DNA of 64,000 nucleotides from Acidobacteriota bacterium (lineage in GTDB: Bacteria > Acidobacteriota > Terriglobia > UBA7540): NCBI GenBank assembly GCA_023474345.1, contig JAMCXS010000023.1, positions 1 through 64,000 on the forward strand, read 5' to 3'. Positions 23,024-24,559 of this stretch are shown piece after piece; the stretch's first letter is position 1, and every line of letters starts with the position of its first letter. Made by a program: the position numbers and the translations under genes. The notes beneath the pieces are model-generated. The model was not told the origin of the DNA, did no database searches, and saw only the letters and a program-made list of their open reading frames with translations.

Positions 23024-23497
23024 ATGAAGCGTGAATATCCTAAGCAACCTATCGTCGCTGTGGGCGGCGTGGTGATTCAAGGCAGCCGCGTTCTGCTGGT
23101 CCGGCGCGGGCGGGAACCGCACAAGGGCGAGTGGTCGATTCCCGGCGGAATGCTGGAACTGGGAGAAAGCCTGGTCGAAGGAGTGCGCCGCGAGATTCGA
23201 GAAGAAACCGGAGTGCACGTGGAACCGCTGGAAATCCTCGGTGTTTTTGACCGCATTCAAAAAAAAGGACCGCGCGTCCAATACCATTACGTTATCGTCG
23301 ACTATGCTTGCCGCCGGACCGGCGGGCGATTGAACTCCGGAAGCGACGTGCTTGATGCCCGTTGGGTCAAACGTGAGGAGTTGCCGGACTACTGCGTCGC
23401 TCAGAAAGCGGCCTTGGTGATCGCTCGTGCCTTCAAGTTCGCCGAAAAATCCCCAAAAGTCCCATCCGCCCCCAAAGACGCAGAACAGGCTTTGTGA
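23024..23497 (+). CDS. Nudix hydrolase
   Basis: A 157-residue Nudix-fold protein, which would hydrolyse a nucleoside diphosphate linked to another moiety. The Nudix box is complete: GGMLELGESLVEGVRREIRE continuing into ETGV, matching G-x5-E-x7-REUxEExGU. It starts MKREYPKQPIVAVGGVVIQG. PHKGEWSIPGG before the box resembles the ADP-sugar/NADH-type pyrophosphatase subgroup, but the substrate cannot be assigned. The C-terminal 20 residues are a charged tail. Co-directional with the M20 peptidase. Confidence 0.9.
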   Translation: MKREYPKQPIVAVGGVVIQGSRVLLVRRGREPHKGEWSIPGGMLELGESLVEGVRREIREETGVHVEPLEILGVFDRIQKKGPRVQYHYVIVDYACRRTGGRLNSGSDVLDARWVKREELPDYCVAQKAALVIARAFKFAEKSPKVPSAPKDAEQAL

Positions 23498-23544
23498 AAA
23501 CCTTGCCTGGGCTTTGGCTACCTCAGATTCCAGCGCCCAAAATC

Positions 23545-23583
23545 AAAAACCCCTGGCCTTGCTCGGACAGCAAGACCAGGGGG
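23545..23583 (-). terminator. strong intrinsic terminator of a minus-strand transcript
   Basis: A 14-position stem with one mismatch (CCCCTGGCCTTGCT at 23550-23563 against AGCAAGACCAGGGG at 23569-23582) and a 5-nt loop. On the minus strand it is followed directly by TTTTTG. It lies at the end of the putative small transcript that starts near 23766, about 48 bp after the Nudix stop on the other strand. There is no T-run on the plus-strand side. Confidence 0.8.
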
Positions 23584-23702
23584 CGGATACTGACTAGGAT
23601 TGGCTTCCCCGAACTTAGCAGGGAACTGGCGCTGCCTAGCGCCGTGCCATTATTCCTCTCTTCGCTAGCGAGAGGTCCTTACAAACTAGCACTAGCGAGC
23701 GC

Positions 23703-23744
23703 CTAAGCCTCAGCACCCTCGCTACAGTTACAATCAATTTGCAT
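23703..23744 (-). CDS. 13-residue micro-ORF with an exceptionally strong ribosome-binding site
   Basis: ATG to TAG encodes MQIDCNCSEGAEA. AGAAAGGAGGTGATCC (23760-23745) directly precedes the ATG and is the complement of the usual bacterial 16S 3' end over 16 nt, with GGAGG 6 nt from the start codon. A promoter lies just upstream, so the leader would be only about 20 nt. The peptide is acidic with a Cys-x-Cys pair. I recognise no family. It might be a functional peptide, a leader peptide, or the outcome of a ribosome-binding RNA element without peptide function. Confidence 0.45.
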   Translation of the reverse strand: MQIDCNCSEGAEA

Positions 23745-23772
23745 GGATCACCTCCTTTCTAGCGTGACTCCG

Positions 23773-23801
23773 ATATTAAAGGCCTCCAGAAGTTGAGTCA
23801 A
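23773..23801 (-). promoter_or_regulatory. sigma70-type promoter of the small transcript
   Basis: On the minus strand, TTGACT (23801-23796), a 17-bp spacer, then TAATAT (23778-23773); shifting by one gives TTTAAT with a 16-bp spacer. The predicted start is about 23766, immediately ahead of the strong ribosome-binding site. It lies 24-52 bp after the GT2 stop codon, so it is downstream of, and separate from, that gene. Confidence 0.6.
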
Positions 23802-23824: not shown

Positions 23825-24559
23825 TCAGGCGAAGTATTGATGCCTCCAGGAACGCCACCTCAGTGCCAGCAGATCGAAGAACATGCGAATTGAATCGCGC
23901 AGAAAGTGGACTTTCGTGGCCGGGTTATCATTCCACCGCACTGGCACTTCCACGATCTTTCCGCCCATGCGGTGGATCAAAAACAACACCTCCGGATCAA
24001 ACCCAAATCGCTCCACCCGCTGTAACTCAAAAGCCCTCCGGGTTGTGGCCCTCCGAAACAGTTTGAAGCCACACTGGGTATCGCGAATGTTGAGGCCGGT
24101 AAGCAGGCGCACAAAAAAATTGAAGCACCGGCCGGCGAACTCGCGAGTCCATGGCTGGTGGATGCCAATCAACTTCCGGTCGAGCGCCCGGGACCCCACG
24201 GCCGCGTCACTCGACGACGACTCCATCGCCGCAAGCAGCTTGTCGGTCTCCTCAATTGGAGCGGACAGGTCGGCGTCGGTGAACAGGATGACGTCACCGT
24301 GCGCTTCAAGCATCCCGCGCCGCACGCTGAACCCTTTGCCCCGGTTTACCTCGTTTTGAAGGATCCGCGTGTGGGGCCACAAGGACTGAAGCTGACGGAA
24401 CAAGTCGGGTGTGGAGTCGCTCGATCCATCGTCCACCAGGATCAGTTCGGTGACGAATGGCCTCGAAGCGACGTACCTCCGCACGCCTTCAAGCGCTTCC
24501 CCCATCCTCGACGCTTCGTTGTAAGCGGGAATGACGATACTTAAGTATGGCGTAGCCAT
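23825..24559 (-). CDS. family 2 glycosyltransferase (dolichyl/polyprenyl-phosphate type)
   Basis: A 244-residue GT-A enzyme resembling polyprenyl-phosphate hexosyltransferases (DPM1/ALG5-like). Motifs: LSIVIPAYNEASRMGEAL, ELILVDDGSSDSTPDL, NRGKGFSVRRGMLEAHGD, LFTDADLSAPIEE (the D-x-D metal site), RDTQCGFKLFRR and FGFDPEVLFLIHRMG. There is no membrane segment. It probably charges undecaprenyl phosphate with a sugar for envelope glycans. It stands alone on the minus strand, followed by the small transcript unit. Confidence 0.9.
   Translation of the reverse strand: MATPYLSIVIPAYNEASRMGEALEGVRRYVASRPFVTELILVDDGSSDSTPDLFRQLQSLWPHTRILQNEVNRGKGFSVRRGMLEAHGDVILFTDADLSAPIEETDKLLAAMESSSSDAAVGSRALDRKLIGIHQPWTREFAGRCFNFFVRLLTGLNIRDTQCGFKLFRRATTRRAFELQRVERFGFDPEVLFLIHRMGGKIVEVPVRWNDNPATKVHFLRDSIRMFFDLLALRWRSWRHQYFA

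Follow-up and report, generated by a model that had tools for sequence, protein, structure and literature searches.

A putative translated, structured small RNA of Acidobacteriota with a super-Shine-Dalgarno sequence and probable distant homology to Ms_IGR-5

A 64,000-nt stretch of an acidobacterial contig (the window) carries on its minus strand a micro-ORF preceded by a complement of the 16S rRNA tail, or super-Shine-Dalgarno (super-SD) sequence. Comparison with related genomes indicates that this feature makes up the 5' half of a small RNA gene of about 220 nt, which stands alone with its own predicted promoter and terminator. The reading that we favor, with a probability of roughly 0.6, is that the gene specifies a translated, structured small RNA, distantly homologous to the actinobacterial RNA Ms_IGR-5 (RF02471), whose fold would be coupled to ribosome loading and termination. 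An analysis of the window by itself (the sequence-only reading) had described a 58-nt unit made of the SD and the ORF; both of these are real, but the unit to which they belong is larger, a structured RNA gene.

The small RNA gene and its super-SD

The elements assigned at the window locus, and the basis for each, are as follows.

23545 to 23766, minus strand: whole small RNA gene, predicted transcript of about 222 nt (promoter, nucleotide conservation, terminator, sub-threshold RF02471 match)
23796 to 23801, minus: -35-like box TTGACT, separated by 17 nt from the -10 box (TTGAC the same in all 27 aligned homologs of family f1)
23773 to 23778, minus: -10-like box TAATAT (TAtnAT conserved in the f1 alignment)
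23760 to 23764, minus: helix P1, 5' strand CGCTA, predicted to pair with 23720 to 23724 (4-bp core covaries; RNAalifold)
23745 to 23761, minus: super-SD TAGAAAGGAGGTGATCC, complement of the whole single-stranded 16S tail
23703 to 23744, minus: micro-ORF MQIDCNCSEGAEA-stop, with ATG start and TAG stop (reading frame and stop retained in all 93 homologs)
23720 to 23724, minus: P1, 3' strand TAGCG, within the ORF at codons Cys-Ser-Glu (fixed-register pairing)
23712 to 23718, minus: helix P3, 5' strand GGGTGCT, within the ORF, predicted to pair with 23585 to 23591 (RNAalifold in family f10, pairing counts)
23592 to 23604, minus: conserved unpaired motif GCCAATCCTAGTC, upstream of the P3 3' strand (CAATCYCAAC in most relatives)
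23585 to 23591, minus: P3, 3' strand AGTATCC, immediately before the terminator (RNAalifold, pairing counts)
23545 to 23583, minus: putative intrinsic terminator, CCCCTGG..CCAGGGG stem and T run (sequence; stem conserved in homologs)
23024 to 23497, plus: NUDIX hydrolase gene, convergent neighbor (PF00293, 8e-23)
23825 to 24559, minus, the strand of the RNA: family 2 glycosyltransferase gene, upstream neighbor (PF00535, 1.6e-27)

The transcription start, placed from the -10-like box, would lie near 23766 on the minus strand, and boxes similar to this -10 were found upstream of the f10 and deeper homologs as well. The f1 alignment (f1 being the family of the source genome) shows the same order of elements throughout: a TTGAC-17/18-TAtnAT promoter, CGCTAG, the super-SD, an ATG, a short ORF, hairpins, a GCCAATCCC.TCAG motif and a CCCCTGG..CCAGGGG-TTTT terminator. 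In f1 and f7 the RNA often has a gene of the NUDIX family beside it, usually as the convergent downstream neighbor, and in these contexts no consistent same-strand gene was found downstream of the RNA. A ThiF-family gene is a frequent neighbor in f1, farther upstream.

On the minus strand, AGAAAGGAGGTGATCC occupies 23745 to 23760 with zero mismatches and is followed directly by the ATG, which lies 6 nt from the GGAGG; the sequence-only reading was right about the match and its spacing. This 16-mer is found a single time in the source genome and is unique within the window even when 3 mismatches are allowed; at that tolerance dinucleotide shuffles give 0.6 matches. An exact 16-mer has a chance of about 3e-5. 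The source genome is a 75%-complete MAG from whose assembly the 16S gene is absent, and the 16S 3' ends of family members were used instead. In all four of these (L052, L055, L059 and L060) the complement of the 16S 3' end is TTAGAAAGGAGGTGATCCAGCC, so that the match has a length of 17-18 nt (TAGAAAGGAGGTGATCCA), and none has the divergent tail that would have spoken against the assignment.

The predicted duplex between the SD of the micro-ORF and the 16S tail has an energy of -29.8 kcal/mol, versus -15.4 kcal/mol for the best of the 44 long ORFs in the window, the set to which this comparison is confined; the earlier statement that the complementarity goes far beyond an ordinary ribosome-binding site is borne out. 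Among 101 relatives, the exact 16-mer is present in 0-2 copies per genome and the reversed 16-mer, used as a control, is absent; the matches inspected were, without exception, loci of the window type or 16S genes. Near-complete complementarity to the 16S tail is retained in 80 homologs, with predicted energies of -21.5 to -37.9 kcal/mol. Matches to AGAAAGGAGGTGATCCATGCA in Patescibacteria (L061-L065) resemble 16S genes on the opposite strand rather than relatives.

A nucleotide search with 241 bases located the element in 32 of the 101 related genomes, mostly of family f1. A covariance model of 73 positions (R1) then matched 110 of 299 genomes of the class, one copy each save in two assemblies, in each of which the extra match lies at a contig edge; most of the homologs found by R1 had been missed by an earlier phylum-wide pattern search that was overly strict. 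Many of the R1-positive genomes are single-contig assemblies of family f10, and R1 also matches in the acidobacterial families f27, f30, f48, f57, f63 and f79. The source genome has one clear R1 match; a weak second one (17.6 bits, E 0.075) was seen at G000:C17:33753-33847. The R1 match in L192 (f92) proved to be a false positive within a coding gene and was excluded from the homolog set.

The reading frame and the fold

For the frame and stop counts 93 homologs were retained, and SD phase, ATG frame and ORF length were tabulated for the first 80 of them. All 93 have a start codon (ATG, GTG or TTG) near the SD that is in frame with a stop at one fixed structural place; the identity of that stop varies (TAG 80, TAA 7, TGA 6). 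Among the 80, the ORFs are 12-22 codons long and the distance from start to stop is always a multiple of 3; ORFs of 11 codons, for example MSSNHSEVAET-stop, are found in deeper families. The distance from the SD to the stop spans all three phases (0/1/2 = 54/16/10), and of the ATGs found 5-14 nt after the GGAGG in these 80 homologs 74 are in frame and 1 is out, counts that are not usable as probabilities because the homologs are related and do not represent independent events. The kept frame makes a strong comparative case for translation of the micro-ORF, which is likewise supported by published ribosome footprints on Ms_IGR-5 homologs, considered below. The ORF is under selection to remain translatable; we found no homolog in which the RNA was kept and the frame lost.

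The sequence of the encoded peptide is a different matter. In f1, pairwise differences at codons 2-6 comprise 504 non-synonymous and 70 synonymous changes, whereas at codons 7-13 there are 92 non-synonymous and 167 synonymous changes. The peptide as such is weakly conserved. The Cys-x-Cys micropeptide envisaged earlier was rejected, since the CxC motif is present in only 5 of the 93 homologous peptides and most of the differences at codons 2-6 of f1 replace the amino acid. The sole recurring part of the peptide is its C-terminal end, [S/R/G]-E-[V/G]-[A/T/P]-x-x-stop. The codons for this motif double as strands of the covarying helices P1, P3 and P2, and its E and V may be by-products of RNA pairing. 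In three f27 members (L185, L186 and L189) the peptide has two SEV/REV-like units (MSYHSRSEVFDRTREVAAT), as if from duplication of a GCGAGGTG segment.

The codons that lie in the loop, from the start to the 3' strand of P1, have a G+C content of 0.39 and strongly favor AGT among Ser codons (106/180) and TGT among Cys codons (54/74). One simple reading is that the AGT/TGT preference avoids pyrimidine runs that could pair with the SD. The same codons (23726-23741 in the window) are almost without Ala or Val in all homologs, despite the GC-rich genomes.

In the predicted fold, P1 is formed by the first nucleotides of the RNA and ORF codons -6/-5, P3 by GGUGACUG of the ORF and CAGUUCACC immediately ahead of the terminator, and P2 by GGACGCCUC and the region of the stop. 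The loop of P1 would contain the super-SD and start codon, and P2 the stop. The SD block is predicted to be only slightly more accessible than the RNA as a whole (0.44 versus an average of 0.35). The P3 5' strand region is also SD-like (GAGG) and lies 11 nt ahead of the stop. RNAalifold recovered P1 and P3 without guidance from 24 f10 sequences.

The 4-bp core of P1 is fully paired at a fixed register in 87 of 93 homologs, with compensatory changes that yield CACG/CGTG, CGCT/AGCG, CACT/AGTG, CACC/GGTG, CACA/TGTG, CGCA/TGCG, CGCG/CGCG and CAAG/CTTG. Taken jointly, P1, P3 and P2 have 93.1% paired cells; none of 500 shuffles reached their covariation score, and every slid register scored lower. 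Cognate strands outperformed swapped partners in 1274 of 1460 comparisons for P1 and in 1105 of 1460 for the duplexes between the ORF and the 3' motif. The weakest helix is P2 in its outer part (79% paired). Its pairing around the stop, clear in f10, does not transfer to f1 via one alignment, and f1 departs from the f10 form in P2 and in the post-stop region. The f9 homologs L133, L136 and L151 keep the 5' half, with an ORF ending CEVTAV-stop, and no CAATCYCAACAG motif was recognised in their 3' half.

C-terminal codon changes (GTG to GGT; GCT to ACT, TCT or CCT) have matching substitutions on the 3' partner strand in several cases, which suggests that pairing outranks amino-acid identity in these codons. 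Comparison of the homologs thus shows a conserved set of predicted elements: promoter, terminator, super-SD, kept frame, fixed stop and covarying P1 and P3, with P2 weaker.

Possible modes of action

Because the near-complete complement of the 16S tail is combined with an ORF that is woven into the folded core, it is very likely that ribosome binding belongs to the way in which this RNA works. We propose that the 5' end of the RNA would pair with codons of its own ORF to form P1, displaying the super-SD and start codon in the loop. A 30S subunit would bind this super-SD and the ribosome would translate the 12-22 codons, with the initiating ribosome melting P1 and next P3 and P2. The ribosome would then halt over the core at the fixed stop, helped by the SD-like GAGG 11 nt upstream. 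The helices would refold after ribosome release, the last ORF codons forming P3 with the pre-terminator motif and P2 around the stop codon. Output would pass through the conserved CAAUCYCAAC between P2 and P3, a likely contact for an RNA or protein partner, with access to it gated by translation. As translation would open P1, P3 and P2 and refolding would follow, the state of the RNA would report or use ribosome loading and termination.

This specific translation-gated mechanism is tentative, and we would give it clearly less than even odds. Control of access to CAAUCYCAAC by opening and refolding of the helices, and a regulatory output of the RNA, are what the arrangement of the elements would predict, and the act of translating may outweigh the N-terminal residues of the peptide in importance. 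It is a speculative and rather unlikely extension that the RNAs of Acidobacteriota and Actinobacteria form one family whose state is set by ribosome loading, with refolding of the core as against its occupancy by the ribosome as the signal, and which would act in trans as a stand-alone device that senses free ribosomes or the capacity for initiation.

The same data could describe a dual-function RNA, in which the super-SD ensures that a short acidic peptide with the ending E[V/G][A/T/P]xx is made at very high levels and acts on a protein partner. Retention of frame, start and stop in 93 homologs, the excess of synonymous changes at codons 7-13 in f1 and the C-terminal REVA motif that the acidobacterial peptides share with those of Nocardia and Tsukamurella would all be expected of such a peptide. 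However, codons 2-6 in f1 are without amino-acid conservation, the length varies from 12 to 22 residues, CxC is not conserved, and the V to G and A/T/S/P exchanges at the C terminus accompany changes in the pairing partner. We therefore consider a peptide product improbable as the main function.

It is more doubtful still that the RNA is a decoy that captures free 30S subunits through a duplex of about 17 bp and so tunes or buffers initiation, the ORF merely serving to free the subunit. The complementarity in the 80 homologs is indeed more than initiation needs, and in f10 it extends to GATCCAGCC, towards the h45 segment. The f10 members, however, have a 1-nt bulge within the SD duplex; capture needs neither a frame kept over 12-22 codons nor a fixed stop, and a single-copy gene would need extreme abundance to titrate 30S subunits.

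A cis-acting leader or attenuator of a downstream gene is very improbable: thiG (thiazole synthase) lies just past the terminator on the same strand in 14 of the collected f10-type contexts (for example L138:3216-3995), perhaps by chance synteny, but a strong predicted terminator closes the RNA, the downstream neighbor in f1 and f7 is usually the convergent NUDIX gene, and the Nocardia neighbors differ again from the acidobacterial ones. That the RNA is purely non-coding and its frame a coincidence of RNA constraint is scarcely credible, for although the C-terminal codons are located in helices, the ATG is in frame in 74 cases against 1, the SD-to-stop distance occurs in all three phases and the stop changes identity at its fixed place.

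The original observation of the super-SD was right and its interpretation as a micropeptide gene half right: translation appears to be conserved, the Cys-x-Cys peptide is not, and the part played by RNA goes further than had been supposed.

Relation to Ms_IGR-5 and other RNAs

Ms_IGR-5 has been described as a discrete small RNA in Mycobacterium smegmatis (PMC10454040) and in Streptomyces (PMC8079986, PMC8780764). In two mycobacteria, M. abscessus and M. smegmatis, ribosome footprints were reported on its homologs (PMC4974804); the authors caution that RNPs and classical non-coding RNAs are footprinted as well. We found no assigned function for Ms_IGR-5 or the peptide in the literature searched, subscription papers being outside its scope. 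Rfam describes Ms_IGR-5 as an sRNA, and the ORF, super-SD and P1/P3 are absent from the descriptions that we found.

A scan of the window against Rfam at gathering thresholds gave no match. At a permissive threshold, RF02471 aligned with 23542-23765 over its entire length (model 1-184/184; 20.8 bits, E 0.0068), and it matched the acidobacterial loci L131 (E 2.9e-4) and G040 (39.2 bits, E 5.5e-7); when ten loci were scanned, six matched, the best with 42.6 bits and E 1.6e-6. By score, the acidobacterial RNAs fall short of membership, at 20-43 bits against a gathering cut-off of 45, but the model aligned end to end and in register (1-184/184) with the window locus, with f10 and f3, and with several of the deeper families. 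In the reciprocal direction, R1 matches the Nocardia farcinica Ms_IGR-5 (L177, 3001-3068; E 6.1e-5) at the same nucleotides; this locus scores 142.7 bits with RF02471. A plasmid copy in Tsukamurella is matched by R1 with E 0.007.

The Nocardia RNA encodes MDSSRTREVAVR-stop at the equivalent place, ending REVAVR-stop, and the Tsukamurella copy encodes MVNFRTEEVAAA-stop, whose end coincides with the acidobacterial ending REVAEA-stop. Given the two-way matches between RF02471 and R1 and the equivalent Nocardia ORF, we treat the acidobacterial RNAs as distant Ms_IGR-5 homologs with a translated ORF, an assignment that we hold to be highly probable. The two share, in register, an ACAC start, GGAAGGAGGUGGUCC, GUGAGGUGGCUG, GCGAAU..CC..GCAGUCACC and a terminator, but differ in the middle domain. 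The Tsukamurella tyrosinosolvens plasmid copy (L178:1490-1700) is shortened; SD, micro-ORF and terminator are kept, the middle domain is mostly gone, and P1 is unpaired at the standard register.

If this homology is correct, an actinobacterial orphan sRNA regarded as 'non-coding' extends to a second phylum, acquires a conserved frame, a super-SD that is universal and a structure backed by covariation, and becomes a testable ribosome-linked device. The RNA is present as a single copy per genome in much of the Acidobacteriota and is also found in soil and pathogenic actinobacteria, and the homologs collected here allow constraint at the level of the RNA to be told apart from constraint at the level of translation.

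Likenesses to other small RNAs are partial. The consensus of CC2171 (RF01867), a Caulobacter sRNA, likewise carries GAAAGGAGGUGAUCCAGUG near its 5' end and would be another sRNA that is complementary to the full 16S tail; its model gave 14.2 bits (E 0.65) and 13.2 bits (E 1.2) against a cut-off of 75, and these scores do not demonstrate homology. SgrS/SgrT and rnTrpL/peTrpL are dual-function sRNAs in which a small RNA gene contains a translated short ORF. The acidobacterial RNA resembles them in this respect, but unlike theirs its ORF lies inside the conserved fold and its SD spans the whole 16S tail. Long SD:anti-SD pairing is shared with the extended SD sequences of Staphylococcus aureus, which lie in ordinary mRNAs (PMC13009471), whereas in Acidobacteriota it belongs to what appears to be a single-copy structured RNA.
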